From: a virus
DNA: 43,050 nucleotides
Virus record (IMG/VR): IMGVR_UViG_3300031746_000048
Span: 1 to 43,050 of that record
Direction: 5' to 3' (one strand)
Shown: positions 8,732-38,798 of the stretch, piece after piece
Layout of the letters: every line of letters starts with the position of its first letter
Position numbering within the stretch: the stretch's first letter is position 1
Position numbers and translations under genes: made by a program
Notes under the pieces: model-generated
The model's database searches: none
Seen by the model: only the letters and a program-made list of their open reading frames with translations
What the model was told of the DNA's origin: nothing

Positions 8732-9286
8732 ATGGGAAAAAAAGGTATAACAAAATATTTTGGTTTATTTGAAAAAAAACAAAGATTCGGTAAATATGAA
8801 GTAATTGATGGTAATGTCACTATGGATGGTGAAGCTAAAGTTTTTTGTGTTTGCGATTGTGGAGATATACATAATGTCGCTTGTTATACACTACTAAAAG
8901 GTACTAGTAAGGGATGTAAATTATGTACACAGTCAAGACCTAAAGAATTGAATCCCGCTTGGAGAGGATACGGAAATGTGCCGGGGAGAAAACTATCAAG
9001 AATCACCAAGGGTGCGAAAAATAGAAACATAGAAATTAATATAGATATAAAATTTTTGTCAGAATTATATGAAAAACAAAATGGTAAATGTTATTATACT
9101 GGTTTACTAATAAATTTTGATGACGGATCGGCATCCTTAGAAAGAATAGACAGTAAGATTGGTTATGAAGAATCTAATGTTGTTTGGGTTCATAAAAATG
9201 TTAACATTATGAAGAGAGATTTATCTTATGAAGAATTTTATAATGTGTGTAAATTAGTTTTTGAAAATAAAAAAGAAAATATTTAA
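8732..9286 (+). CDS. HNH-type endonuclease (probable free-standing homing enzyme)
   Basis: This 184-aa protein has two parts. The N-terminal half carries a cysteine-rich zinc-binding segment, VFCVCDCG (C39, C41, C43) and CKLC (C62, C65), like the DNA-recognition modules of phage homing endonucleases. The C-terminal half has GKCYYTGL (C120), ASLERIDS (D140) and NVVWVHKNVNIMK (about 149-161, H154 and N158), the layout of the HNH nucleases found scattered through phage genomes. It probably cuts DNA at a specific site and spreads its own gene. It sits directly after nrdJ, a gene often invaded by such elements, and is preceded by a 14-bp hairpin. Its codon use is similar to the neighbours. Which site it cuts cannot be told from the sequence. 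Confidence 0.75.
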   Translation: MGKKGITKYFGLFEKKQRFGKYEVIDGNVTMDGEAKVFCVCDCGDIHNVACYTLLKGTSKGCKLCTQSRPKELNPAWRGYGNVPGRKLSRITKGAKNRNIEINIDIKFLSELYEKQNGKCYYTGLLINFDDGSASLERIDSKIGYEESNVVWVHKNVNIMKRDLSYEEFYNVCKLVFENKKENI

Positions 9287-22382: not shown

Positions 22383-25369
22383 TGGCTATAAATAAATTTA
22401 CTTGTCCACCACAAAGTAGTGCGGTCAATCAGTTTTCAAATAACTTGGTTGGCGTTCAGTTAGTTACTGGCGGAGGTTTAACGCAGGCAAATTTTAACTT
22501 TACAACAGGAATTAGCGAAAAACAAAATCGCACATTCAACATTGGAACATTCTCAGAACCAATTAACTTGGAGTCTATTAATATTGAAAACAATGTTGAG
22601 TCTGCAGATATTTTAGCAAACAATTATAGAGTTTACCCAAATTATGATTTATCTCAAGTTACTAACTTTACCGAATATGGGTCTCTTGTTAAAAGAATGT
22701 CAGTGTCAATTACTAAAATTCTTAATTATTTTCCCGCTGGTTTAGAGATTAATCCAAAGACACCAAAGTTTATAACACAACAAACAGCAATTAACATTTC
22801 TTATGATCCTATAGATAATGACACTACATTTGAGGTGTATGTTTCCTCAATACAGAATCCATTTGAAATTGATTATACCGAAAATGCGGCAACAAACATG
22901 ATGTTTAATGAGTTTGAAATTTCTACATTAAGAAATATGACACTCAATTATAAAAAATATGTTTTATACTTAAACAATCAACAATATCCTGTAAACTATT
23001 TATATCCAACGACAACTGGATCTACCACACTTAAATTAATTGTTGACGGGAATCCATTTAGTGGTGGAAGTTTTTCAAATGATTATTTGGTTATTAGACC
23101 AAGCGATTATGAGGCAAATAAAGTTTACAATTTAAACTTAGATCAAGTTGAAAATTTTCTTTTAAATAGAGAAGTAACACCACCTTATACTTCACAATTT
23201 TATGTACCAAGGGAACAAGAAAACGGTACTTATATTATTACAAAAGAACTTGTCACTTGGCCAAGAGCGGGTCTTTGGAATTTAGATATTAGATCAATTA
23301 GTTTTGATAATTATTTAACCCAAATTAATGATTTTTCTGCTAAATTAGACGAATATAATACAAACATTATTTCTAGATTTTTAACAACAGGAGCATTAAA
23401 AGATTTCGATACTCCTGATCAAAAGTTTGAAAAGTTATTACAGATATATGGTAGAAGTTTTGATGAGACAAAATCATTCATAAGCGCATTAAGTAATATG
23501 AACAGTGTTCATTACAATATTGGGAATGATATACCATCTCAATTACTTAAAAATTTAGCACAAACATTAGGTTGGGTAACAAATTTCTCTCCAATATCAC
23601 AAGAAGAATTATTACAGGCAGTTTTCACAACACAACCAAATACTTTTACTGGATTACAAATAGGTCAAACCCCTGAACAAATTAATTATCAGTTTTATAG
23701 AAATTTAATTTTAAATTCGGCATACCTTTTTAAATCTAAAGGAACAAGAAAGTCTATTGAGGCTTTATTGAGAATGGTTGGGGCACCAGATGCTTTAATT
23801 GAATTTAATGAGTATATATATGTTGCTGACCAAAGAATTAATATGGTCGAGTTTAATCAACAATTTGTTGAGATAAGTACAGGTAATGTTGTACAACAAC
23901 TTCCTGTTTTACAAACAACAAATGTTTTTTCAATTCAAGGAGTTCAATATACAGGATTTACCACATTCTCAACTAACTTTACGGTAACAACAACAAGAAA
24001 TGATTACCCTGTGGATGTCTTTGGATGTCCACAAATGCCAATCGCAACCGAAAGTTTTTTCTTCCAAATAGGAGGAGGTTGGTATGAGTCAACACCACAA
24101 CACAGAATGCCTGAGTTTGCAATACCTACGAATCAAGTATTCACAGGAAATAATCCAGATTATCAAACAAAACTTTTACCATTCAATTACGGGGAAGAAT
24201 ACCTATACAGATATAGATATTTCCCATACATGGATTTGGGTTATAAATTAAGAAAAATTGCTGACAACAAAAAAAGTTGGGTTGACACAAATCCTTTTTT
24301 AAGAACAAGTTTTGATGGTAACTTTAATGCTTATTATACTGTTGGCGAAGAGTGTTTAGCTTTAAATGTTAAGAATGTTGACATTATGTTAAATCCTGGT
24401 CAAGGTTTGGCATATGATGTTTGGTATATGTCAAGAAACACCAATTTCCCAATCCCCGAACAAGGATTATTTTATACGCCTCCTTCACCATGTTATGTAC
24501 CTAACCCATATCCTAAATTAGGTGGTGTGGATTGGACAACAATAGTACCAAAACCAAAACAAAAAACATTCTTTGAATTTGCACAGACATTTTGGAGAAA
24601 CATGATTAACACCCGAAATAGACAATTTATTACGGATGGTAAGACAGGCGGGTACCCAACATTACAATCAATATATTGGAATTATTTAGAGTCACAAACT
24701 TTAGCCGGTATACCAAATGATAATTTTACTTATCAAACCATGATCGACTTTGTAAATAGTATGGGCGATTATTGGATTAGGCTTGTTGAACAAATGGTTC
24801 CTGCGACAACAATTTGGAATACGGGAGTTAGATTAGAAAACTCAATTTTCCACAGACAAAAATTTGTATGGAGAAGACAAGAAGGATGTAAATTTGTACC
24901 TGTTCCGTGTAAACCTTGTAATCTTACAACACAACTTTATGTGTTGGATTGCCCGACACAACAAGTTACATGTCCAATATATCCTTGGGAATCAGATCCT
25001 AATATGACAAATTTTGGAACTGTTTTAAATGATTTATTAAATAGTTATTTCACATCAGTTGGATTAAACCCAACAAATTGTCAAGTTAATACGGTACAAT
25101 CAACTTGGTTTGTTGACGTTAGAGTAAATGGTTCTATTTTAACTCAATACGAATTTTTCATTGGTGTAGGAACAGTACAATACCCAACACCAACACAATG
25201 GTTAACGGCATTAGAGGAGACATTCCAAAGTTTACAAACATACGGTTATGGTTATAATATTGATACCACAGATAATCAAATTGTTGTATTTAATAATAAC
25301 TGTCAACCTAACTTTGATGAATTACAAATCAATGTAGGGATAAATTTTAATGTATATTGTAACGGATAA
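22382..25369 (+). CDS. Tail-protein-I-like baseplate protein, 995 aa
   Basis: Residues about 320-470 contain the best clue: a helical region with KFEKLLQIYGRSFDETKSFI, QLLKNLAQTLGW, and then NLILNSAYLFKSKGTRKSIEALLRMVGAP. The last pattern (L-x-N-x-x-Y-L-x-K-x-K-G-T-x-x-S-x-x-x-L-L) is characteristic of large-phage tail/baseplate proteins related in layout to P2 gpI, which links the baseplate to the fibres. The rest is beta-rich and aromatic. The C-terminal ~115 residues, including YPTPTQWLTALEETFQSL and IDTTDNQIVVFNNNC, are a module that recurs in the next gene at nt 27120-27545. Its stop-start overlap with that fibre gene supports a fibre-attachment role. Confidence 0.7.
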   Translation: MAINKFTCPPQSSAVNQFSNNLVGVQLVTGGGLTQANFNFTTGISEKQNRTFNIGTFSEPINLESINIENNVESADILANNYRVYPNYDLSQVTNFTEYGSLVKRMSVSITKILNYFPAGLEINPKTPKFITQQTAINISYDPIDNDTTFEVYVSSIQNPFEIDYTENAATNMMFNEFEISTLRNMTLNYKKYVLYLNNQQYPVNYLYPTTTGSTTLKLIVDGNPFSGGSFSNDYLVIRPSDYEANKVYNLNLDQVENFLLNREVTPPYTSQFYVPREQENGTYIITKELVTWPRAGLWNLDIRSISFDNYLTQINDFSAKLDEYNTNIISRFLTTGALKDFDTPDQKFEKLLQIYGRSFDETKSFISALSNMNSVHYNIGNDIPSQLLKNLAQTLGWVTNFSPISQEELLQAVFTTQPNTFTGLQIGQTPEQINYQFYRNLILNSAYLFKSKGTRKSIEALLRMVGAPDALIEFNEYIYVADQRINMVEFNQQFVEISTGNVVQQLPVLQTTNVFSIQGVQYTGFTTFSTNFTVTTTRNDYPVDVFGCPQMPIATESFFFQIGGGWYESTPQHRMPEFAIPTNQVFTGNNPDYQTKLLPFNYGEEYLYRYRYFPYMDLGYKLRKIADNKKSWVDTNPFLRTSFDGNFNAYYTVGEECLALNVKNVDIMLNPGQGLAYDVWYMSRNTNFPIPEQGLFYTPPSPCYVPNPYPKLGGVDWTTIVPKPKQKTFFEFAQTFWRNMINTRNRQFITDGKTGGYPTLQSIYWNYLESQTLAGIPNDNFTYQTMIDFVNSMGDYWIRLVEQMVPATTIWNTGVRLENSIFHRQKFVWRRQEGCKFVPVPCKPCNLTTQLYVLDCPTQQVTCPIYPWESDPNMTNFGTVLNDLLNSYFTSVGLNPTNCQVNTVQSTWFVDVRVNGSILTQYEFFIGVGTVQYPTPTQWLTALEETFQSLQTYGYGYNIDTTDNQIVVFNNNCQPNFDELQINVGINFNVYCNG

Positions 25370-28300
25370 TGAGTATATTAGTAAATAGTTATGGATTCAC
25401 TGGTGATTGTAGTAATAAATCTATTGGGGCCGTCATATTTAATGTAACGGGTGACACACCTCCATTTGCGGTTACTTGTTTAAATTCATCATTACCGCCA
25501 ACCTCAGCATTAACAGCGCCTTTTTATTATGAGGCAACTGGTTTATCAGGTGACACTTATTTTTTACAAATAATAGACGGAGCTTCAAACGGAACTATAT
25601 TAAGTGTTTATATATCTTCAGGTACTTCCGCTAGTATTGATTCAACAAATACAACTTGTGGGTTTGATAATGGTAGTGTAACAGGATTTACCTCAGGTGT
25701 TTATGGATATGCAAGTTTTACATTATATGATGGGTCAGACAATTACATTACCTCAGCATCAACATCTAACAGTTATTATGATTTCCAAAGTTTATCTGCA
25801 GGAACATATTATGTTGTTGCAGACGATGGTGGTGGATGTACGGGTATTACCGCTTCTGTTATTATTAACCCATCAAACGCATTCACATATAGTGGATATG
25901 TTGTAAATGATGGTAGTTGTATTGGAACATCAAGTGGAAAAATATTTTTAACAGGATTAACATTACCGGTCTCAGCGTACTCAATAAATTGGTTAACAAA
26001 TGTTAATGGACAAACAGGGGCAACAATTACAGGTTTAACTAGTGGGTCATATGTTGTTGAAATAACTAATCCAGATAGTTGTGTAACTTCTAATACTTTT
26101 ACTGTTCAGTCTGTGGACCCAATAGGTTCTGCGGGATTTATTGTATTTAATCAACCAAGTTGTTTTCAAAATGACGGGTCTGTTGAGTTTATAGTTTCTG
26201 GAGGAACTGCGCCGTATTTTTTTAGTGCGTCTACAGGGCAAGTTGAAATAACATTTGACCAATCGGCAATCTTTACAAATTTAGCATCAGGGACATATAA
26301 TTTTTCAGTTACAGACGCAGGTCTTTGTACCATATATGATTCAATTTCACTAATAACACCAAACTCATTTAGTACCGTACAAGTAAATACAACACCATCT
26401 TACTGTTCTGTCAATGACGGAACAATACAAGTTATAGTTGATAACGGATTTTCAAATCAAGCTAATTTATTAATTACTATATCAGGACAATCAGGTACCC
26501 AACAAATAGGTACTTTGGGCAATTCGGTTCAGACATTTTTTGGTTTACCTAACGATACTTATTTGGTTACAGTATCTACCGTAGGTTGTGTTTATACTGC
26601 AACTACAAGTGTTAGTTCTGTAAATCTTTACACAGTTACAGCGGCAACCACAGGGACTACATGTGGATCTACAAACGGAGTTTTACAAGTTACCGTTTCA
26701 ACAGGGGGGACTCTTCCATATATTTTTACATTAGTTGGGCCAAGTCAAAATCCTGGAACTATAACAACAGCTATAAGTACATTCTCCAATTTGGACTATG
26801 GAAATTATGTTTTAACGGTACAAGATTCAAGTACCCCAAATTGTATACAAAGTTATGCAATTTATATTGACCAAAGTCAAAATGTATTTTTTAATTATAT
26901 AACTTCTCAACCTATTAATGGAAACGATGGGTCAATATCTTCTTACATAACTCAAGGTGAGCCACCATTCACATATACATGGACTGGTGGAAACGCAGCA
27001 TCTCAAACAGGAAACACCGCAACAGGATTAACATCGGGGATTTATACCCTTACGGTTACGGATTCAGACGGATGTACTTTAATTAAACGAATAAGATTAA
27101 GTGGAACTATAAGGTACTCAAACTACAGATATTTTAATATTTGCCAAGATAATTTCCAAGATAGTGGTTTTATAGGCCCAAGAAATATTAGATCAATGTA
27201 TCTTGAAGGTTATGCTGATTTAACAAGTGGGGATACTAATTGTATAATTAATGATGCAACATTTTCAATATTTGCAGAAGTAGGAAGTCAATCTGCTCAA
27301 ACCATATTTTATACTTCATCAGGATCAACAGACTATCCTTCAGATGTTTTATGGGCACAAACAATTACAGATACATTAGATTCTTTTGTTGGTATATCGG
27401 GAACAACAGTTGATATAACAAATAATAGAATTGAAATACAAACTACTTGTCAAGATGTACCAAAAGGTTGTATTGTTGAACCAATAAACCCTTTGCAAGA
27501 CACACAAGTTATTGTGAATCTTGTCATTGACTATGACATCGCTTGCGTTTCATGTACTCCAGTAACACCAACCCCAACGACAACCCCAACTAATACTCCA
27601 ACCCCAACGACAACCCCAACTAATACTCCAACCGTAACTAAGACCCCAACTAATACTCCAACCGTAACTAAGACCCCAACTAATACTCCAACCGTAACTA
27701 AGACCCCAACACCTACACCTACATCAACATATCCGGTAATTTGTCCTGATCCTTTTATATCAGTATGGACCACAACATTTCCAAGTGAAACAATTAATTT
27801 ACCTTATAGTCCGTCAGGAATTTACGATGGAACTATTGATTGGGGTGATGGTTCTCCTATAACTATAAATGATTACACAAATAGATCACATACCTACGCA
27901 ATTGCAGGGACATACACAATAACAATAAATGGGGAAATAACAAATTTTAATTTTGGTGTTAATGACCCAACTAATGTAACTAATCTAATAAGTGTTACAC
28001 AATGGGGAAGTTGTTTTAATATTGTAAGTGGTTTAAGTGCTTTTGAAAATTGTGATTCTCTTACTTTAACTAGTGTTACTGATATATTAGATTTGACTAA
28101 TGTATTAACTACCGTAAATATGTTTGCTGGTTGTACTCAATTAACAACGGTAAATAATATGAATTCATGGGATGTATCAAGTGTTACAGATATGAATAGT
28201 ATGTTTGCTGGTTGTCTTAATTTTAATCAACCACTTAATAGTTGGGTAGTGTCAGGTGTTACAGATATGGGCAATATGTTTGCCAATTGTCTTGTATTTA

Positions 28301-29100
28301 ACCAACCACTTAATTCATGGGTAGTATCAAGTGTTACAAATATGGGTCTTATGTTTTCCAATTGTTTTGTATTTAATCGACCACTTAATTCATGGATAGT
28401 ATCAGGTGTTACAAATATGAGTACTATGTTCTATAATTGTAATGATTTTAATCAAAATATTAGTTCATGGGATGTATCAAGTGTTTTAGATATGAGTTAT
28501 ATGTTTGGTTTTTGTTATGTATTTAACCTACCACTTAATTCATGGGACGTATCGAGTGTTTTAGATATGAGTTTTATGTTTTTCAATTGTAATCAATTTA
28601 ATCGACCACTTAATTCATGGGTAGTATCAAGTGTTACAAATATGAGTTATATGTTTATTAGTTGTTTTGATTTTAATCAAGATATTAGTTCATGGGATGT
28701 ATCAAGCGTTACAACTATGAGTAATATGTTTGGTTTTTGTCTTGTATTTAATCAACCACTTAATAGTTGGGTAGTGTCAGGTGTTACAAATATGAGTAAT
28801 ATGTTTGAACAATGTTATCAATTTAATCGACCACTTAATTCGTGGGATGTATCAAGTGTTACAAATATGAGTACTATGTTTTATAGTTGTTTTGCATTTA
28901 ATCAAAATATTAGTTCATGGGACGTATCAAGTGTTACAAATATGAGTGCTATGTTTTATGGTTGTATAGTATTTAATCGAGATCTTAGTACATGGTGTGT
29001 TCAAAACATACTATCACTACCAACAAATTTTGATTTTGGAGCCACGTCATGGATTTTACCAAAACCTATTTGGGGTATTGCTAGTAGTCCACCTTGTTAG
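25369..29100 (+). CDS. Modular tail fibre/adhesin with SprB-like, PKD and DUF285 repeats, 1243 aa
   Basis: Probably the main receptor-recognition fibre. Modules in order: about seven SprB-like domains (residues 1-580), each ending in a pattern such as GLTSGIYTLTVTDSDGC and containing GG-x-x-P-[YF]-x-[FY] cores; a module shared with the preceding gene (about 584-725); a Thr-Pro linker (730-787); a PKD domain (IDWGDGSPI with SHTYAIAGTYTITING, about 820-854); and 12 units of a 25-residue DUF285/BspA-like repeat (about 930-1215) with core NSWDVSSVTNMSxMF. SprB repeats are known from the flavobacterial gliding adhesin SprB, and DUF285 from bacterial surface proteins, so these modules were probably captured from hosts. 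Cys is frequent, one or two per module. The start overlaps the preceding stop (TAATG). Confidence 0.8.
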   Translation: MSILVNSYGFTGDCSNKSIGAVIFNVTGDTPPFAVTCLNSSLPPTSALTAPFYYEATGLSGDTYFLQIIDGASNGTILSVYISSGTSASIDSTNTTCGFDNGSVTGFTSGVYGYASFTLYDGSDNYITSASTSNSYYDFQSLSAGTYYVVADDGGGCTGITASVIINPSNAFTYSGYVVNDGSCIGTSSGKIFLTGLTLPVSAYSINWLTNVNGQTGATITGLTSGSYVVEITNPDSCVTSNTFTVQSVDPIGSAGFIVFNQPSCFQNDGSVEFIVSGGTAPYFFSASTGQVEITFDQSAIFTNLASGTYNFSVTDAGLCTIYDSISLITPNSFSTVQVNTTPSYCSVNDGTIQVIVDNGFSNQANLLITISGQSGTQQIGTLGNSVQTFFGLPNDTYLVTVSTVGCVYTATTSVSSVNLYTVTAATTGTTCGSTNGVLQVTVSTGGTLPYIFTLVGPSQNPGTITTAISTFSNLDYGNYVLTVQDSSTPNCIQSYAIYIDQSQNVFFNYITSQPINGNDGSISSYITQGEPPFTYTWTGGNAASQTGNTATGLTSGIYTLTVTDSDGCTLIKRIRLSGTIRYSNYRYFNICQDNFQDSGFIGPRNIRSMYLEGYADLTSGDTNCIINDATFSIFAEVGSQSAQTIFYTSSGSTDYPSDVLWAQTITDTLDSFVGISGTTVDITNNRIEIQTTCQDVPKGCIVEPINPLQDTQVIVNLVIDYDIACVSCTPVTPTPTTTPTNTPTPTTTPTNTPTVTKTPTNTPTVTKTPTNTPTVTKTPTPTPTSTYPVICPDPFISVWTTTFPSETINLPYSPSGIYDGTIDWGDGSPITINDYTNRSHTYAIAGTYTITINGEITNFNFGVNDPTNVTNLISVTQWGSCFNIVSGLSAFENCDSLTLTSVTDILDLTNVLTTVNMFAGCTQLTTVNNMNSWDVSSVTDMNSMFAGCLNFNQPLNSWVVSGVTDMGNMFANCLVFNQPLNSWVVSSVTNMGLMFSNCFVFNRPLNSWIVSGVTNMSTMFYNCNDFNQNISSWDVSSVLDMSYMFGFCYVFNLPLNSWDVSSVLDMSFMFFNCNQFNRPLNSWVVSSVTNMSYMFISCFDFNQDISSWDVSSVTTMSNMFGFCLVFNQPLNSWVVSGVTNMSNMFEQCYQFNRPLNSWDVSSVTNMSTMFYSCFAFNQNISSWDVSSVTNMSAMFYGCIVFNRDLSTWCVQNILSLPTNFDFGATSWILPKPIWGIASSPPC
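27556..27729 (+). repeat. Thr-Pro linker repeat (30-nt units)
   Basis: This encodes a Thr-Pro-Asn-rich linker. Three perfect 30-base copies of taatactccaaccgtaact plus aagaccccaac occupy 27621-27710, with a diverged copy at 27591-27620. It belongs to the linker family found in four fibre genes of the window. Confidence 0.9.
28159..29010 (+). repeat. 75-nt tandem repeats encoding DUF285-like units
   Basis: Twelve Trp codons of the core [NS]-[ST]-W lie between 28168 and 28993, a span of exactly 11 x 75 bases, so no unit has gained or lost a base. Units alternate between NQPLNSWVVS- and NQNISSWDVS-type versions, and the last one (STWCVQN) is degenerate. Confidence 0.9.
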
Positions 29101-29146: not shown

Positions 29147-29947
29147 ATGAATAACATTACAATATCCTCAATAACGGGTTTAATACCTCCATTTAGCGCT
29201 TATTGTTGTGATTTTTACGGAAATCAATGTTCATATGTTGGTAGTGGAACTACAGTACCCATTACATTTACATTAACACCACAATTTGTTTCGGCTCCAT
29301 CAGTTAATATAACATTGATCGATTCAATAGGGTGTCAAAAAGTTGAAACCGTTATTTGTGGGTTAATAGTTCCAACACCAACAGTTACTCCAAGTAATAG
29401 TGCAACACCTGCGGTTACACCAACAAACACAGAGACACCAACAAATACTAATACTTCTACACCTACAAACACTAATACTCCTACAACAACTAATACTGAA
29501 ACACCAACACCAACACCAACACCTACGCCAAGTGGTACAATGTTAAATAATTATTTTGCAACTAGATGTGGGAGTGGTGCTGAGATTGAAATTATTGATT
29601 TGAGTTTATTAACAGGATTCACAGGAAATACTTTCTTAAGTAGTAATGGTCTTTGTATGTTTGCAGTAGATTCCCCAACAACAAGTGCCGCAACAATAAC
29701 ACCACTATTACAATTTACAGGTGGATCATCGTGTCTTGATTGTTTAACGGGAGGTTGTGTTAATTGGGAAGTATCTAATTCGGGGTCAGCAGGACAAATA
29801 TCATTTACGCCTTGTTGTGGTGAGTCAAAAACAAGTCCATATAATTTGGCGCCTTATGAATTTACTAATATTTGTTCAACCACTCAACCAATTGTTTTAA
29901 GTGGGTTGGTAGGAATAAGTAATCAAGGTATTTGCCCTGGTTGTTAA
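29147..29947 (+). CDS. Short Thr-Pro-linked, Cys-rich fibre-type protein, 266 aa
   Basis: Three parts are seen. An N-terminal beta module (1-73; ITISSITGL...PF...CD...C.YV) is homologous to the whole 73-aa minus-strand protein at 38577. A linker of Thr-Pro-Asn repeats (about 76-129) follows. The C-terminal domain is rich in Cys (RCGSG, SCLDCLTGGCVNW, TPCCGES, GICPGC). The layout, head module - flexible stalk - globular tip, fits a side fibre or tip protein. No signal peptide. It lies between the long fibre gene and a glycosyltransferase-like gene that could act on the Thr-rich stalk. The function of the C-terminal domain is not recognised. Confidence 0.7.
   Translation: MNNITISSITGLIPPFSAYCCDFYGNQCSYVGSGTTVPITFTLTPQFVSAPSVNITLIDSIGCQKVETVICGLIVPTPTVTPSNSATPAVTPTNTETPTNTNTSTPTNTNTPTTTNTETPTPTPTPTPSGTMLNNYFATRCGSGAEIEIIDLSLLTGFTGNTFLSSNGLCMFAVDSPTTSAATITPLLQFTGGSSCLDCLTGGCVNWEVSNSGSAGQISFTPCCGESKTSPYNLAPYEFTNICSTTQPIVLSGLVGISNQGICPGC
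29372..29533 (+). repeat. Thr-Pro-Asn linker repeat
   Basis: Degenerate Thr-Pro, Thr-Asn-Thr codon repeats (such as accaacaccaacacc) encode the stalk of the 266-aa fibre protein. Same linker family as at 27556-27729. Confidence 0.85.
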
Positions 29948-29983
29948 ATTCACTTACAAAAAATAATATCTATAATTTTTTTA

Positions 29984-30964
29984 ATGAAAAATATATTATT
30001 TGTAACAGCACAACCTGATGTACCATACTTTATTTGGCAAATAAAATTATATGTACATAATTTTATTGAGAAGGGAATTGACCCAAATCAAATACATGTT
30101 GTTTTTAGTATTGTACATCGAAATGAAACACCATCTGAAGAATCTTTAAAACTAAAAGATTTTGGTATTAATGTTCATCATTTCTCTGATTTTAGAAAAA
30201 AAAAACACTACATACCATCTATAAAACCATTTCTTATTGCAAGTTGGTTAAAAACAAATCCTGATTACAAAAAATTATTCTTCCTTCACGATGCTGACAT
30301 TATTTTTAGGGAACTACCAAATTTTGATCAGTTGTTAAATGATGAGGTAATTTATTTATCCGATACCGTTGGGTATATTGGTTATGATTATATTATTGAT
30401 TGTTGTAACCGATATGAAATACAACATCCAAAATCAGAAAAAAACCAACTAATAAATGAAATGGCAAATGTTATTGGTTTAGATGTTAAACTAATAAAAG
30501 AAAACCGTAAAAATGCGGGAGGAGGTCAGTACTTAATTAAAAATACCGATGCGGATTTGTGGGATAAAATATATAGAGAGTCTACTTTGTTATATGATCA
30601 AATGTTAGATTACCAAAAAAGGTTTCCAATTTCTCCTGGTGAAATTCAGTTTTGGACCGCAGAAATGTGGAGTTTACTTTGGAATCTTTGGTTACATGGA
30701 TACAAAACAGAAATAACAAAAGAGTTAGATTTTTCTTGGGCAACAGATAGTATTGAGATATACGAAAAACGACCTATCTTACATATGGCAGGAGTAACAG
30801 ACGACATGAAAAATAGAAAATTTTATAAAGGCGAATTTATTAATATTGACCCAATTCAAAAATTAAAAGAGGATCCTAATTTTTTTGATTTTGTTGAAAA
30901 TACAAGTTCAACGGTGAAATACATAGATAATATGAAATCATACATAAAAAAATACGAAAGTTGA
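29984..30964 (+). CDS. GT-A-type glycosyltransferase-like protein, 326 aa
   Basis: The N-terminal half has the order of a nucleotide-sugar-binding GT-A fold: ILFVTAQPD at the first strand, then a long helix, LFFLHDADIIF (98-108) with a D-x-D motif (D103, D105) for metal/nucleotide sugar, and later KNAGGGQYLIKN (about 176-187) and EMWSLLWNLWLHG, patterns used by glycosyltransferases for acceptor and sugar binding. No membrane segment or signal peptide, so it acts in the cytoplasm. Set between two genes for Thr/Pro-rich fibre proteins, it may glycosylate their stalks, or it may modify another virion protein, DNA or a host glycan. The fold call is moderate; the substrate is unknown. Confidence 0.6.
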   Translation: MKNILFVTAQPDVPYFIWQIKLYVHNFIEKGIDPNQIHVVFSIVHRNETPSEESLKLKDFGINVHHFSDFRKKKHYIPSIKPFLIASWLKTNPDYKKLFFLHDADIIFRELPNFDQLLNDEVIYLSDTVGYIGYDYIIDCCNRYEIQHPKSEKNQLINEMANVIGLDVKLIKENRKNAGGGQYLIKNTDADLWDKIYRESTLLYDQMLDYQKRFPISPGEIQFWTAEMWSLLWNLWLHGYKTEITKELDFSWATDSIEIYEKRPILHMAGVTDDMKNRKFYKGEFINIDPIQKLKEDPNFFDFVENTSSTVKYIDNMKSYIKKYES

Positions 30965-30981: not shown

Positions 30982-33033
30982 ATGGTAGAAGATTGTTATA
31001 TACTTTATTCCTGTGATGGGAGTTATGAGCCAATAGTATCAAACTATTCAGGATTCAGCGCTTATTCCTCGACTTTTATAGGGATTGAAATAGTTGATAT
31101 ATCAATTACCGCAAATACTTGTTTTTATGTGCTAAGTTTAGGTGAAGTAGATTGTTCAGTTACTGAAGATGTAATACCTGTTACAGGAGTAACATGTGAT
31201 TGTCCTTGTTATTGTTATTTTATTAGATCCGCAACCGAAACTACAGATGTAACTTATGTGGATTGTAATGATGATATTGTTGTTGAGACAATACAATCAG
31301 GATTAACATATAATATTTGTAGTAAAGTATACCCACAATTTGACACAACAGTACAGATACCTTTAAAACTAACGGATCTTTGTCAAGATAATCAATGCCC
31401 CCCAACAATACCAACGGTTAAACCACCAAACGAATGTGATGTAATTACAATATTTCCAATGTATATTGAATGTTTAACACAACAACCAAGTAATGATAGA
31501 ACCTTTGACGGATCAACTGCTTTAATTATAACTGGAGGAACACCTCCATATACTATTTTTTGGGAGGTTGGTAGTTTTGCTCCGGCTTTAATAAATTTAA
31601 GTGTAGGGGCTTACACCGCAACGGTTACGGATTACTATAGTGATTTTACAGCAACAACAACATGTTTATTGACCGCAGAAACTTTATCGTTATCAGCAAT
31701 GTGTTTTGTTGTTTCAGGTGTTATTAAACAAGTTGTTTATATAACAAGTCAAAACCAAGGGTTATTAAATGGTAAACCTTATTACTACCTACAATATGGT
31801 ATAAATGTAGTTGGTTATGTTTATTGGGATGGACAAACAGAGCTTTGGACTTTCTGCAATGATCTAAGTTGTCAAGGATCCCCTTATAATACTTTAGATA
31901 ACGGGGGATATTTTTATCCAACAGGAACTACTGGGGATTGGATTGTTAATGTGAATAGCCCTTACCATATTACAGAATCCTATGAAGGGTCTTGTAATAT
32001 TCCTGTAATATCAAAAGATTTATATAATCTGTGTGTTAATTTAGAGGTTAGAAGTGATGATGTAGGTTATATAACTGAAATTGTCCGAATACAAATGTAC
32101 TCAGCAAGTACAATAAATGGACAACCAAGTTGGACTTCAGTAACTTCACAATATTTAATTTATTGGAATACAGGGTCAACACCATCACAATGGGTTATGA
32201 CAGGATATCCACTTACTAGTTTGATTAATTACGACCCAACATATCCACCATTATCTAATTGGCAAATTTTAGGGTCGCCAACGGTTTTAAATATGGTGGT
32301 ACTAACAGGAATTTGTTCTACAGCGTATACCGTAAATAATAGCATTGTCGCTAATGACGCAATTTGTAATAAACAAGGAAGTATAACTATAAACACCAAC
32401 AATGGAGTTTCACCATATCAATACTCAATTAATGCGGGACAATCTTATCAAGCATCACCTATCTTCAACAATCTACAACCTGGAACTTATTATGTACTTA
32501 CAAAAGATTCTAATAATGTTACAAGCATAATTACCCCAATAATTATTAATGCAACTCAACCAATAACATATACGGTAACACTAAGTGTTAATTATGCAAA
32601 TGACACATTTTCAGTTTCCACCCCAACTTTACCGGTAGGAGCAACAATATCTTTTGATCTTTTTCATACTAGTAATTTATTTTATTATCCTAACACAATG
32701 ACTCCTATTCCATCATACAATAATTTTGCAACAATAACTGGCGTTGGACCACTTCTATTTTATAGTATATTAACAAGTACGCAAAATATTCCTGGAGTTT
32801 GTACTCAAGTGAATTCACCATCAATTCAAAATCAAATTTATAACACGTATTATTCGGCGGTAACACTAACAAGCGGTCAAATTATTTATGGTACGGTTAC
32901 AGATCAAATAACTAACTTTATGGCTGGTTATTGTAAGAGCGTTTCCGGTACTTATCAAATTCAAGCGGGGAATCCACAAATAAAAAATTGCGATTGTTGT
33001 ATAGTTAAGATAGACACTGGAAATAATTCTTAG
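30982..33033 (+). CDS. Cys-rich fibre-type protein with SprB-like domains, 683 aa
   Basis: Two SprB-like domains are seen, around residues 178-230 (ALIITGGTPPYTIFWEVG ... LSVGAYTATVTD) and 467-520 (SITINTNNGVSPYQYSIN ... LQPGTYYVLTKDSNN). Between them lie two copies of a small module with an N-G-[KQ]-P start and a later Y-W (LNGKPYYYLQYG...VYWDGQTELW, about 263-291; INGQPSW...LIYWN, about 378-404). Cys clusters occur at both ends (CDCPCYCYF; CDCCIVKI). Unlike its neighbours it has no long Thr-Pro linker. Probably a host-recognition or fibre protein, with a TATTTAT motif before the start. The function of the NGK module is unknown. Confidence 0.68.
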   Translation: MVEDCYILYSCDGSYEPIVSNYSGFSAYSSTFIGIEIVDISITANTCFYVLSLGEVDCSVTEDVIPVTGVTCDCPCYCYFIRSATETTDVTYVDCNDDIVVETIQSGLTYNICSKVYPQFDTTVQIPLKLTDLCQDNQCPPTIPTVKPPNECDVITIFPMYIECLTQQPSNDRTFDGSTALIITGGTPPYTIFWEVGSFAPALINLSVGAYTATVTDYYSDFTATTTCLLTAETLSLSAMCFVVSGVIKQVVYITSQNQGLLNGKPYYYLQYGINVVGYVYWDGQTELWTFCNDLSCQGSPYNTLDNGGYFYPTGTTGDWIVNVNSPYHITESYEGSCNIPVISKDLYNLCVNLEVRSDDVGYITEIVRIQMYSASTINGQPSWTSVTSQYLIYWNTGSTPSQWVMTGYPLTSLINYDPTYPPLSNWQILGSPTVLNMVVLTGICSTAYTVNNSIVANDAICNKQGSITINTNNGVSPYQYSINAGQSYQASPIFNNLQPGTYYVLTKDSNNVTSIITPIIINATQPITYTVTLSVNYANDTFSVSTPTLPVGATISFDLFHTSNLFYYPNTMTPIPSYNNFATITGVGPLLFYSILTSTQNIPGVCTQVNSPSIQNQIYNTYYSAVTLTSGQIIYGTVTDQITNFMAGYCKSVSGTYQIQAGNPQIKNCDCCIVKIDTGNNS

Positions 33034-33072: not shown

Positions 33073-35844
33073 ATGGCTTACATAATAAAAAATACTTCAG
33101 GCTTAGTTAATACTAGAGTTACAGATACAGGTAGACAAAAATTATCTGAAGGTAACTTTAATATTGCTTATTTTGCTATCGGAGATAGTGAGATTTCATA
33201 TAACACTCTTCCATCAACTTATAACCAAGCAAATACTGTGATTTTGGAACCACAGTTTAATGCTCAAAACAGTAGTGGTGTTCCTGAATCAAACCGACAA
33301 TATATTAAATACCCTTATTTAGTTGACCAAGGAGAAACAAATATTTATGGAATTCCATTTATGGATTCTATATTTGATTCAGTATTCAATAGAGCGGCAC
33401 CAAGAGGTTTTTTTACAGGTAATACAACAGCAACAACAATTAATTGGTCGGCTTTCACAAGTAGTAATTATGTATCAACACCTAATTATGTTGTTAACAT
33501 GTCATCTTTAAGTGGTACAAACCAAATTGAAGTTTATAATTTAAATTGTAATCCAACTATAACGGAAACACCACAAGTTGGAGACTTTATTACAATTTAT
33601 TACGATGGATTGGCTATTTTAGATTGTTCATGTTCAAATTTACCAACACCAACACCAACTATTTCGCCAACGGCTAGCCAATATCAAACGCCTACACCAA
33701 CACCAACAGTTACAAGTTCGGGGGTTGGTCCATGTACCTCACCAACGGCAACACCAACACCCACTAAAACACCTTGTATTACAGTATCACAAAGTCCTGT
33801 ATGTCCAGTACCACCAATGACTGAATGTACTAAACAGGTTTATAGTTGTTACCCAATTTTAACTTATAGAATTGTTGCGGTATGTGGTAGTTTATTAACT
33901 TTAGATAGAGCAACTCCTGACTTTTTAGAAGTTGCAACTCAATGTGTTGCAAGAGCATTGATTTATCCACCTAAAATGGTACCTCTTTACGATAGTTTCA
34001 CTCCTAGACCGCATTGGAATGATAGTGTTATTGATTTTGAATCTGTTTGTGATACCGATCAGTTTGATGTTAAAATTTGGAATATGAATATTCCATGGAC
34101 AGAAAGTCCAGCGGGATTATTATCAAATCAAGTCCAAAATTACACTAAGTTTGGGTCTGTACAATATATTGGATCTAAAGAGTATTTTGGTTATACAACA
34201 AGTGCTCAAACCTCAACAGATGATGTATATCATTATAACTCATTTGGGGAAAAACAAGTTGTAACACCACAAAATCAAAAAGCAATATCTATAATACATT
34301 ATACAAATCAAACTATTGATTTCTTTTATGGTGAGAAATTTGCGATGCAACCTTACGATGCTCAGAATCCTGAAAATACACAAGGACAAGCAAGAAATTT
34401 TAAATTACACATACCAACATTAATGTGGCATAAAAACCCTGAATGTTGTTTTGGTCAAACATTTTATGTTGATCCTTCGGGATTTGACAATAAAAATTTA
34501 TTTCAAGTTCAATACACAAAGTCTACTGTATCTGAAAACATGAACCAACCTGGTTTAAGATACTATAACCTTTGGGACACATTTGCACAACCAAATGGAT
34601 TACCAAGTAGAATTGGTAAAGTATATCCTGATTCTAAAATGGTGATTATTGATGATGAAGAAATAGTAGCGGCACTTTCTTATAAATCAAATAGAAACTG
34701 GACATTACCGTCACCTCAATTATCGCTTATTACGCCAAATACATGTGGCACATCAAACACCACAGGATTACTTACAGGTGGTGCGGAAACTTTATGGGTT
34801 ACTTATAGATTATCAAATCATGACACATTTACAAATTCATTACATTGTAATTACTACACTAGTATTTTAGGAACTGAAAATATTTGTACACCAGATACAC
34901 CAAGAAATGTTGGAGTTAGATTTGGAGGAGATTTTTCATGTTTAGTACAACCATCATTTATTCCAATTCCTAACCCTACAAGTACGCCAACGGCAACACA
35001 AACACAAACCCCAAGTGTAACCCCAACTAATACTGTAACACCAACAAAAACTTTAACCCCAACTCCAACTGTTTCTCTTTATTTAACCCCAACTGCAACA
35101 GCAAGTAATACACCAACACCAACTGTAACGCCAACGGTTACGCCAACAAATACAATAACACCAAGTGTAACGCCAACAAATACAATAACACCAAGCGTTA
35201 CAAATACTCAAACATTAACTCCAAGCGTTACCGTAACTAACACACAAACACCATTTGACACACCAACACCAACACCTACAGTTACTTTAACACCTACACC
35301 AACAGGATGTCCTACTTGTGTTGTACCTCAAGGGTTTTACGCAACTGAATTCCAAGTCTTGGCTCAAAAAGTACCTGTTGGACAAAGACCAGTTGCTGAA
35401 AATTGGAAAATCATAGACTTTACAAGTGAGATAAGTTCAATGTTTATAAATGGTTTTGTAACTCAAGCGTCTCTTACAGGAACAACTTTTGTTATCTCAC
35501 AAGACAATTATTCTGCGGCAAATTATTACAATCTTAACGATTATATTGATTTAGTACCTTTAAATTATAGTGGAATAAGTATGAATTTTGGTGATGAGTA
35601 TTTCTTTTATGGTAATTTAGAAACCGACATTCAAGCAACAATTTACGAAATGAAGTACAAAATTAATTTAAGTTCTTCTGAGTTCTTAGTTTCTCAAAAC
35701 CCAACATGGAAATTTGGAACACCATCTTATGTTACAGAAATTGCGTTATTAGATGAAAACGAAGATATTTTAGTTATGTCAAAAATGCAATCACCAGTGT
35801 TAAGACAAGGGATTCAACAGTATGTAATTAAATTAGATTTTTAA
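33073..35844 (+). CDS. Large structural/fibre protein with two Thr-Pro linkers, 923 aa
   Basis: The N-terminal domain opens with LVNTRVTDTGRQKLSEGNFN then IAYFAIGDSEISY; such a T-x-x-G-x-x-x-L-x-x-G-x-[FL]-x-x-x-x-[FY]-A-x-G-D pattern is seen at the start of fibre and baseplate-attached proteins of large phages, so this end probably docks to the virion. A first Thr-Pro linker (nt 33643-33774) leads to a large central domain with aromatic-rich beta structure (nt 33780-34970). A second, longer linker (34978-35304) leads to a C-terminal domain of about 175 residues. It is the last plus-strand structural gene. Linker sequence in the same codon register occurs inverted in the minus-strand fibre gene at 36560-38575. 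Confidence 0.7.
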   Translation: MAYIIKNTSGLVNTRVTDTGRQKLSEGNFNIAYFAIGDSEISYNTLPSTYNQANTVILEPQFNAQNSSGVPESNRQYIKYPYLVDQGETNIYGIPFMDSIFDSVFNRAAPRGFFTGNTTATTINWSAFTSSNYVSTPNYVVNMSSLSGTNQIEVYNLNCNPTITETPQVGDFITIYYDGLAILDCSCSNLPTPTPTISPTASQYQTPTPTPTVTSSGVGPCTSPTATPTPTKTPCITVSQSPVCPVPPMTECTKQVYSCYPILTYRIVAVCGSLLTLDRATPDFLEVATQCVARALIYPPKMVPLYDSFTPRPHWNDSVIDFESVCDTDQFDVKIWNMNIPWTESPAGLLSNQVQNYTKFGSVQYIGSKEYFGYTTSAQTSTDDVYHYNSFGEKQVVTPQNQKAISIIHYTNQTIDFFYGEKFAMQPYDAQNPENTQGQARNFKLHIPTLMWHKNPECCFGQTFYVDPSGFDNKNLFQVQYTKSTVSENMNQPGLRYYNLWDTFAQPNGLPSRIGKVYPDSKMVIIDDEEIVAALSYKSNRNWTLPSPQLSLITPNTCGTSNTTGLLTGGAETLWVTYRLSNHDTFTNSLHCNYYTSILGTENICTPDTPRNVGVRFGGDFSCLVQPSFIPIPNPTSTPTATQTQTPSVTPTNTVTPTKTLTPTPTVSLYLTPTATASNTPTPTVTPTVTPTNTITPSVTPTNTITPSVTNTQTLTPSVTVTNTQTPFDTPTPTPTVTLTPTPTGCPTCVVPQGFYATEFQVLAQKVPVGQRPVAENWKIIDFTSEISSMFINGFVTQASLTGTTFVISQDNYSAANYYNLNDYIDLVPLNYSGISMNFGDEYFFYGNLETDIQATIYEMKYKINLSSSEFLVSQNPTWKFGTPSYVTEIALLDENEDILVMSKMQSPVLRQGIQQYVIKLDF
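33643..33774 (+). repeat. Thr-Pro linker repeat, first of two in this gene
   Basis: Codon repeats of cca aca / cca act type. The 16 bases 33643-33658 (CCAACACCAACACCAA) are exactly inverted at 37951-37966, in matching codon register. Confidence 0.85.
34978..35304 (+). repeat. Thr-Pro linker repeat, second of two
   Basis: A long Thr-Pro-Asn-Val linker with internal short duplications such as acaccaagtgtaacgccaac at 35158-35177, which nearly repeats at 35188-35205. Confidence 0.85.
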
Positions 35845-36529: not shown

Positions 36530-36561
36530 AAATATCACCTCTTTAGGTGATATTTTTTTTT
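36530..36561 (+). terminator. Rho-independent terminator between convergent genes
   Basis: AAATATCACC (36530-36539) pairs with GGTGATATTT (36546-36555) around a 6-base loop, followed by T to 36561. It ends the plus-strand transcript; the T run overlaps the stop codon of the convergent minus-strand gene. For the minus strand only a weak T run (three bases) follows the stem, so it is mainly a plus-strand terminator. Confidence 0.82.
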
Positions 36562-38575
36562 AACATACAAATCCCAAAGGGATTATGAATACATTTTGTG
36601 GGTTGTTTGAAACAGGTACCGTAGAGGAACAAATCACACTAAATGCATAACCAGCCAAAGAAACAGTTATGGGTGATCCTCCAACACAAGTTGTGTATTG
36701 AAATGTTATGACTGATGGGCTCACATTAGTGACACGATATTTCTTTTGAACACAAGGTGTTGCACTTGGTGTTGGAGTAGGTGTTGGTGTTAATGTCGGG
36801 CAAGGAACATTTAATAGGGTTGTGGTAAAAGTATCATCAAAACAACCTACGGATGGATTGGTAGTTAAACCAATAACCCACTCTAATGCTGTGCCTATTG
36901 GAAGTTCGCTATCTATTTCTAAATAAGCCCCTAATACATTTGTTGTGGTTTCAGTTGCATTCCATCGGTCATTGATATTATCCCAATAAATTTTATAAAA
37001 GTACTGAGGGGAAATAGGTAAAGTAAAACTCCATGTATATGATAGTTTACCATTAATATACGGACCTGGAGTAGCATAAGAAGTACCACATTTGGAACTA
37101 GCAATAACACATTCTAAAATTGGTTCAGGTAAAGATGGTGTACATTCTAAACACGAACCTAAGTTAGATGGGCCAACTTCATTTGTTAAACTAATATTAT
37201 CAACACCACTTATGTTTTCAAATAAACCTTCAAATACCACACAATAACTTAATCCGTTGATCGTTGCGTTATACACATAACCTTCTTTTGGTGATGTAGT
37301 ACCTGAAACTAAAACTAATCCTGATGTAAAGTAATTAATTCCTGTAAAACAATCTTTAAATTTCTTACTATTAGCACATTCAATAATTTGATTTATGGAG
37401 TTAAATACTACTTCACCCGAAAAAACACAAGGTCTTGTAATAACAGGTGTTGACGAAGGTGTAACTGTTGGAGTCGCAGTTGGGGTAGGAGAAATTGACG
37501 ATATGCTTGCACTAAGAGACCTTCCACCACAAAGTGCTGTCACAGAAGGGGTTGGTGTTATAGTAGGGGTTGTTGTGTTGGTAGGTGTGATACTTGGTGT
37601 TGGTTGAATAAAACAATCAAAAATTGCGTCAAAGTCAAAATTCGCACAAGGATTTGTGGTTGTGGTTGTTGTGACACAAATACCAATATACATCACAGTA
37701 TCGTCTAAATCTGGTGTAGACGAAGTACTACCATATGGCCCAAACTCAACGCAAGGATCACCTAAATTCGCAGCTAAACACCATCTATTTTCAAGTATTG
37801 AATAAAAAATAAAACCAACCAATAATGTTGTATTGTTATAATAATTATATCCGTCATAAGTACCACCAAAAAAATAATCACCGTCGTAAGTTATTGTATT
37901 ATGAACACAATAATCTGATGTTGGGGTTGATGAAGGTGTTGGGGTAAATGTTGGTGTTGGTGTTGGGGTTTTTGTGTTAGTAGGTGTTAATGTTTGTGTA
38001 GGAGTATTTGTTGGAGTTTCAGTTGGCGTATTAGTTGGAGTTTCAGTTGGCGTATTAGTTGGTGTTGTTGTTAACGTAGGGGTATTTGTTGGAGTTTCAG
38101 TTGGAGTATTTGTTGGAGTTTCAGTTGGCGTATTTGTTGGAGTTTCAGTTGGCGTATTTGTTGGAGTTTCAGTTGGCGTATTAGTTGGTGTTGTTGTTAA
38201 CGTAGGTGTTACTGTTGGAGTTAAAGTATTAGTAGGTGTAACTGTTGGCGTTACTGTTGGAGTTAAAGTATTAGTAGGTGTAACTGTTGGAGTTTTAGTA
38301 TTAGTAGGTGTAACTGTTGGAGTTGGTGTTGGGGTTGGTGTTGGACAAAGAGTCGATGATACAATATACACACCAGAGTAATCATAAACATAGTTTTGAT
38401 AATAGAAGAAAAAACTTCCACTTGCTGGTGTTAAACAACCAGGGTCTGTGTTAACTGTTGTAAAATCAGGAAAAGGTGCTGTGGCATCAATATAAACTTG
38501 CATTTCTTTACCATTACCCTCACATAATCCTGCTGAAGTTGTACCAGTATATATACTAAAAAGAACACACGCCAT
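36560..38575 (-). CDS. Thr-Pro-linked fibre-type protein on the minus strand, 671 aa
   Basis: Parts in order: an N-terminal domain of about 77 residues ([11 protein letters not shown] ... [15 protein letters not shown]); a very long Thr-Pro-Glu-Asn linker (about 77-218) built largely from an 8-residue NTPTETPT unit; a domain with Y-x-G-Y-x-YY (about 220-300); two shorter linkers around Gly/Cys-rich domains; an NGK module (INGKLSYTW ... [10 protein letters not shown], about 506-537) like that in the 683-aa fibre protein; a final linker; and a C-terminal Cys-containing domain. It looks like a second host-recognition fibre, transcribed against the rest of the late block. It starts one base after the stop of the 73-aa gene (TAAAATG), so the two form one unit. 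Confidence 0.75.
37920..38345 (-). repeat. Long Thr-Pro linker with 24-nt tandem repeats
   Basis: Repeated unit on the plus strand: gttggagtttcagttggcgt plus attt, in several near-perfect copies between about 38005 and 38190. A larger block ending in ttggtgttgttgttaacgta is duplicated (near 38060 and 38190). It encodes the stalk of the minus-strand fibre. Shorter linkers of the same kind lie at about 36759-36795 and 37440-37614. Confidence 0.9.
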
Positions 38576-38576
38576 T

Positions 38577-38798
38577 TTATAAAGTTAAATTTTCTTCGAT
38601 TATGCAATTAGAGTTATCCACAACCCTTAAACCTATAGGGTTCATGCCCTCTTGAATAAATGGTAATATAAAAATATATGGAATTTGACCTGATGTTATT
38701 GTTGAAACATAAACACAAGTTGTGTACCCTGTATCACATGTGTATATATCAAAAGGTGACAATCCTGCTAATGTGTTTATTGTTATTTGTGTTGGCAT
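38577..38798 (-). CDS. Small protein homologous to the head module of the 266-aa fibre protein, 73 aa
   Basis: It aligns over its whole length with residues 2-70 of the protein at 29147: [18 protein letters not shown] against ITISSITGLIPPFSAYCCD, then C-x-YV, a P-x-x-F-x-L strand, and a final D-[SN]-x-x-C-x-x-x-E. Here it is free-standing and followed one base later by the 671-aa fibre gene. It may be a separate fibre-assembly or docking subunit, or the relic of a split in a once-fused gene. A TATTTAT motif precedes the start in the reading direction of this strand. Confidence 0.68.

Follow-up and report, generated by a model that had tools for sequence, protein, structure and literature searches.

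A phage protein family with a predicted GT-A glycosyltransferase fold co-occurs with threonine-rich tracts on virion proteins: putative glycosylation of the phage's own virion

Gene setting and threonine-rich features

The window analysed here was the whole record IMGVR_UViG_3300031746_000048 (43,050 bases), a fragment of a T4-like contractile-tailed virus encoding T4-like baseplate wedge proteins, a DnaB-like helicase, a UvsX-like recombinase and a ribonucleotide reductase. An HNH/endonuclease VII-like gene (8732–9286), possibly a homing endonuclease, was flanked by the ribonucleotide reductase gene on one side and by baseplate genes on the other. As originally predicted, a glycosyltransferase (GT) gene was positioned between a gene with a Thr-Pro stretch, which starts exactly at the predicted base, and further fibre genes (Table 1).

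Thr-Pro stretches were present in several other genes of this region. The 1243-aa protein (25369–29100) combined SprB-like repeats and a Thr-Pro stalk with DUF285 repeats, the latter otherwise found in bacterial surface proteins. Two minus-strand genes (36560–38798), a 671-aa gene whose Thr-Pro stalks are very long and a 73-aa gene, were placed within the plus-strand structural array, and an inverted fibre gene of the 671-aa type, variable in length, was also present in relatives. The C-terminal part of the 266-aa gene consisted of a small domain ('..FTPCCGE..TSP....CPGC'), which in relatives (L001 and L049) was inserted between the Thr-rich linkers of the big fibre gene; we read it as a shuffling domain with the Thr-rich linkers as joints.

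Table 1. Coordinates of the GT gene, its motifs and the surrounding Thr-rich features in the window
Feature	Position	Strand	Basis
Thr-Pro stretch, 1243-aa SprB/DUF285-repeat gene	27538..27750	+	
266-aa gene, directly upstream of the GT gene	29147-29947		
Thr-Pro stretch of the 266-aa gene	29372..29554	+	
GT gene, 326 aa, phrog_4417, predicted GT-A fold	29984..30964	+	profile match, AlphaFold2, Foldseek
D-x-D codons (D103, A104, D105)	30290..30298	+	alignments
H267-M-A-G270 codons, GT8-like 'HxxG' motif	30782..30793	+	alignments
Fibre-like gene after the GT gene	30982-33033		
923-aa fibre gene with candidate acceptor linkers; N-terminal domain conserved in relatives	33073..35844	+	
N-terminal Thr-Pro linker, 923-aa fibre gene; weaker acceptor candidate	33643..33774	+	
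Thr-Pro-type linker rich in Thr (42% of 111 aa), 923-aa fibre gene, ahead of the C-terminal CPTC domain	34972..35304	+	
TTTTTT run, 671-aa fibre gene; second acceptor candidate	37655..37672	-	
Long Thr-Pro stretch, 671-aa fibre gene	37904..38368	-	

Family, fold and motifs of the 326-aa protein

The 326-aa protein matched phrog_4417, listed with "unknown function" in PHROGs, with an E value of 1.2e-66 over residues 6–319, and the same profile also matched 21 of 21 diverse members. Sequence searches with the protein against the PDB gave no clear match, and neither did Pfam and NCBIfam searches for the family, the window protein being without any Pfam match. A single one of the 21 members (L147:6001-6840) had a weak collinear match to HPAT (PF23452) over 175 residues (E 0.0037; 17.1 bits, below the cut-off of 23.9), and no HPAT match was found in whole records. 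Plant HPAT enzymes (GT95) act on repetitive extensins and thus resemble the activity proposed below in having low-complexity repeats as substrate; judged from sequence, we regard kinship with phrog_4417 as a possible lead and not as membership. With tblastn, homologues covering most of the protein were found in 74 phages, with identities of about 30–37% in the rows listed. Their hosts were mostly Enterococcus, Lactobacillus, Staphylococcus and Lactococcus, with the addition of one Chryseobacterium phage, and no mycobacteriophages appeared in the genus tally of these 74 records. The scan of one genome collection yielded a single homologue, in a Geobacter MAG.

The AlphaFold2 model, based on a 36-sequence alignment, had a pLDDT of 94.9 and a pTM of 0.92. 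A Foldseek search against the PDB resulted in 288 matches at E ≤ 0.001, and the 50 listed were GT-A type enzymes, among them WbbM, UGGT (GT24), LARGE1, glycogenin and XXYLT1 (GT8) and the blood-group enzymes GTA/GTB (GT6). These named matches had E values of 3e-7 to 5e-6 and a probability of 1.00, with whole-chain TM values of only about 0.4–0.5. Among viral structure models (BFVD), the matches included viral GT8 proteins. GNPTAB was also among the Foldseek matches, and GT-A folds can also move sugar-phosphate, a point against reading the protein as a sugar transferase.

The D-x-D motif predicted at residues 103–105 is D-A-D, and both Asp residues were invariant in 38 close relatives and in diverse sets of 21 and 36 sequences, down to about 27–31% identity. 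W224, M228, H267 and G270 were likewise invariant in the diverse sets down to that level. We take the H-x-x-G...K pattern of the protein to resemble the GT8 motif that helps to bind the metal, and the H267-containing motif probably provides the third metal ligand. The GT-A fold, the D-x-D and the HxxG...K-like C-terminal pattern are common to the protein and the GT8, GT24 and GT6 enzymes (glycogenin, XXYLT1, UGGT, GTA/GTB); the protein differs from them in the low whole-chain TM values and in having no match to the CAZy GT8 profile PF01501 at E ≤ 10. The gene was under purifying selection (dN/dS of about 0.06–0.19 against relatives). No stretch of the window protein resembled a membrane segment (the highest Kyte-Doolittle mean over 19 residues was 0.86), and the GT-A-like fold that had been predicted for it was borne out by the structure search. 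We thus assign a GT-A glycosyltransferase fold with high confidence on the basis of the model, with sugar transfer itself as the predicted activity.

Co-occurrence of the GT gene and threonine tracts

In cultured phages, homologues were located at, or immediately after, the gene of the major tail protein (phiFL1A, RQ1), of a major structural protein (1706) or of the capsid (nattely, R3.3). The major tail protein gp50 of Enterococcus faecalis phage phiFL1A had the C-terminal end TTTTSTTTTTTSSTTTTTTT / NGTTTTTSTTTTTTSSTTTTTTTQASSK, the R3.3 capsid protein TTTTTTKAPTTTTT / ATTTTTTKAPTTTTTSSHA, and the nattely tail protein, 2 kb from the GT gene, TTTTTTKATTTTTTTTIGG; the gene neighbouring the GT in the Chryseobacterium phage contained PPTTTTTTTSTTTTTTSSTTTTTTAAPT. 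In a survey of distinct GT loci, poly-Thr tracts were present on structural proteins almost everywhere. Loci that seemed tagless (L135-L138, L143, L086, L175/L177) had, on inspection, shorter capsid or tail Thr tails or PTTV repeats; L162-L164 had Thr-codon runs elsewhere in the contig, and L389 carried a GT in a locus without a Thr run. In L136, three virion proteins were tagged (capsid, tail and connector), of which the capsid and tail proteins ended in Thr runs, and L135 had tags on its capsid and tail proteins. The third tagged gene of L136, in the head-tail region (L136:3746-4099), starts with MADETTTTTTTTT. The carriers of the tags were unrelated proteins (capsid, tail, connector and fibre), which is further independent support for the association of GT and tag. 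Thr codons were as mixed in the runs as outside them. A DNA microsatellite as the origin of poly-Thr was ruled out by this mixture; selection therefore keeps the amino acid and not a DNA repeat.

The association was examined in homologues of the phiFL1A tail protein, which were taken from IMG/VR regardless of the GT, counting loci with enough context. Among these major tail proteins of lactic phages, the C-tail carried a Thr run in 17/17 loci with the GT versus 0/44 without it (Fisher 2e-15). Tag and GT each changed about five times on the protein tree, twice on well-supported branches and always together. Even among tail-protein homologues that were >80% identical, L264-L266 had both GT and tag, and L267 and L268 had neither. 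The capsid protein was Thr-tailed too in 15 of the 17 GT-carrying loci, whichever gene the GT adjoined, and in none of the GT-less loci.

That gene and tag were merely co-transferred in one structural cassette, with no functional link, is a reading to which we give little credence. GT and tagged gene are often adjacent, as such hitch-hiking would have it, but proteins at a distance were tagged as well: Coetzeevirus-type phages have the GT after the capsid gene and nevertheless a tag on the tail protein too, at a distance of about 1.4 kb, and phiFL1-type phages have it after the tail gene and nevertheless a tag on the capsid protein too, 2–3 kb upstream. The tags also differ in sequence and codons.

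For the fibre and baseplate proteins of the window, no match was found in cultured phages, and the test within its own lineage was therefore run in IMG/VR. Sequences homologous to the 923-aa fibre gene in its N-terminal domain were collected regardless of the GT; together with the first relatives, which had been found through the GT, they made up 76 distinct rows. A run of at least five Thr (T≥5) in the fibre gene was present in 58/63 rows with the GT versus 0/13 without it, and in 25/27 versus 0/11 in the fibre-fetched set alone. These row counts, like those for the tail proteins, are not counts of independent events, each data set holding two to three supported independent changes and thus a limited number of evolutionary events. 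The GT state changed about seven times on the best tree, three times on well-supported branches, and the Thr run went along. No GT was found hidden elsewhere in the GT-less contigs (16 records; the same model was positive on two known carriers).

The C-terminal linker between the middle domain and the CPxC domain was of the PTTTTTTxxPTTTTTT type in GT-carrying relatives and short, without a Thr-rich tract, in GT-less ones. At this homologous position the linker was Thr-rich in 61/64 rows with the GT versus 1/13 without it, the one GT-less exception being TTT only. Thr-Pro-rich stretches, which had been expected always to accompany the GT and to be missing without it, were found in 63/63 rows with the GT and also in 11/13 without it (9/11 in the fibre-fetched set). 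The Thr-Pro stalk was thereby ruled out as the co-varying feature, and the predicted role of Thr-rich stalks as acceptors stood for the poly-Thr runs, which co-varied with the GT, and not for Thr-Pro stalks as such. Since GT-less relatives have similar linkers too, the N-terminal linker of the 923-aa fibre gene is the weaker acceptor candidate.

The window belongs to a subclade, with L001 and L019, that has lost the poly-Thr run of the fibre gene and has Thr-Pro repeats instead; the acceptor in the window is therefore less certain than in relatives. All three members nevertheless keep a Thr-Pro-rich linker at the same C-terminal position, which fits the rule, with Pro breaking the run. In the window, the linker at the position homologous to the poly-Thr linker of GT-carrying relatives is, by that position, the best acceptor candidate. 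A T≥5 run occurred just once in the window, as the T6 run of the 671-aa fibre gene, which was kept in relatives.

An unbiased reverse test started from the tags. When IMG/VR was scanned for exact matches to DNA coding for ten Thr, 120 stretches were returned, of which 91 had a long Thr or Ser-Thr run in an open frame. Among the same-strand neighbours of poly-Thr genes, phrog_4417 was the commonest family (9/83; the next family, 4). The GT was contained in 12 of the 91 fragments, mostly directly behind the tagged gene. Among longer poly-Thr records, 8/36 had the GT and most were without it in a search positive on two known carriers. In the same scan (L424-L543), glycosyltransferases of GT2 (PF00535) and of the DXD sugar-binding type (PF04488) also adjoined poly-Thr genes, and several enzyme families may serve similar Thr tags.

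It is quite improbable, in our view, that the virion is modified on other tail or capsid residues, with the Thr runs travelling alongside the gene as spacers or lectin-like partners. The existence of Thr runs without a phrog_4417 GT and the window's own subclade, which has no long fibre run, would fit such an arrangement. It is opposed by the presence of the same tag on several unrelated proteins of one phage, as in L136 and L135, and by the tail-protein set, where the tag occurred only when the GT was present; Thr is, moreover, a natural O-glycan acceptor.

Putative glycosylation of the virion and its relation to known systems

The co-occurrence of a GT fold with Thr-rich virion tracts in several unrelated phage groups is best explained by phages glycosylating their own virions. 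A phage-encoded GT co-occurring with a putative acceptor tract on virion proteins, as self-glycosylation would call for, was found. We consider it very likely that the phage O-glycosylates Thr-rich tails or linkers of its own virion by means of the 326-aa GT; catalysis, the O-Thr linkage and the acceptors are inferred. The original prediction that the phage sugars its own fibres was upheld in its essence, by fold and co-occurrence, and was too narrow in its putative targets, which extend beyond fibres to the C-tails of major tail proteins and to capsid proteins.

The enzyme would be cytoplasmic, soluble and nucleotide-sugar-dependent, and would be made together with the structural proteins. 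Before or during assembly, it would move sugar from a nucleotide sugar to the Thr hydroxyls of exposed, disordered Thr-rich tails and linkers. Thr runs would act as a portable acceptor tag, borne by fibre linkers or by the C-tails of major tail or capsid proteins, such that carriers of the enzyme would have tags and relatives without the enzyme would have none. The poly-Thr peptide TTTTTTKPTTTTTT is a candidate acceptor for the phrog_4417 enzyme; in the phage studied here, the probable acceptors are the 923-aa fibre, at its C-terminal linker, and the 671-aa fibre, at its T6 run. Possible benefits are stiff mucin-like spacers, protection from proteases and shielding. More broadly, it seems reasonably likely that phrog_4417 enzymes and poly-Thr tags are the two parts of a portable 'glyco-tag' module that phages infecting Bacteroidota, Bacillota and other hosts have spread. 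Its enzyme would decorate consecutive Thr residues on whichever virion protein bears a tag, be it capsid, tail tube, connector or fibre, to give mucin-like rods, and enzyme and tags would be gained and lost together.

Like many prophage glycosyltransferases, the enzyme might instead glycosylate the host surface (LPS, capsule or a wall polymer), with superinfection block or serotype conversion as the outcome. Serotype-converting phage glycosyltransferases exist, as cited in PMC12619734, and many homologues are found in temperate LAB prophages; the gene is, however, part of late structural operons, where it immediately follows the major tail, capsid or fibre gene, it encodes no membrane segment, no flippase-like partner was seen, and the joint gain and loss of Thr tags would be left unexplained, making this very unlikely. 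Glycosylation of modified bases in phage DNA, a known role of phage GTs (cited in the same paper), is scarcely credible for a gene in the structural module with no base-modification genes seen beside it, and would also leave the association with Thr tags unexplained.

Bacteroidetes possess a general O-glycosylation system, which works on exported proteins, whereas the production and assembly of phage fibres take place in the cytoplasm. The link to this system that had been drawn for the fibres is therefore unlikely, and it is not needed for virion self-glycosylation by the phage's own enzyme.

PMC12363180, PMC11652166 and PMC12619734, which refer to Freeman et al. 2023, describe GTs of mycobacteriophages (Che8, Corndog, Myrna) that O-glycosylate the phages' own capsid and tail tube proteins at their C-termini, and the first two state that this glycosylation shields virions from antibodies. 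Mycobacteriophages resemble the proposal made here in having phage-encoded GTs that act on their own virion proteins. The Che8 glycosyltransferases gp108–gp110 had no detectable relation to the phrog_4417 family and, unlike those of phrog_4417 phages, the Che8 capsid and tail proteins had no poly-Thr tail; the activity would therefore be of a known kind, with apparent novelty in the enzyme family and in the acceptor tag of Thr runs. In the open literature, outside of which most subscription journals lie, no paper linking poly-Thr tags to a phage glycosyltransferase was found.

For phrog_4417, previously without an assigned function, we propose virion glycosylation. A family that is widespread among phages thereby receives a testable function, and the poly-Thr tails that stand out on the capsid and tail proteins of unrelated phages find an explanation. 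The proposal can be tested at once in cultured phages, e.g., Enterococcus phage phiFL1A and Lactococcus phage 1706. If it is true, virion glycosylation would be common among phages whose hosts are lactic, enterococcal, staphylococcal or Bacteroidota bacteria, and its acceptor tag could be read straight from the sequence.
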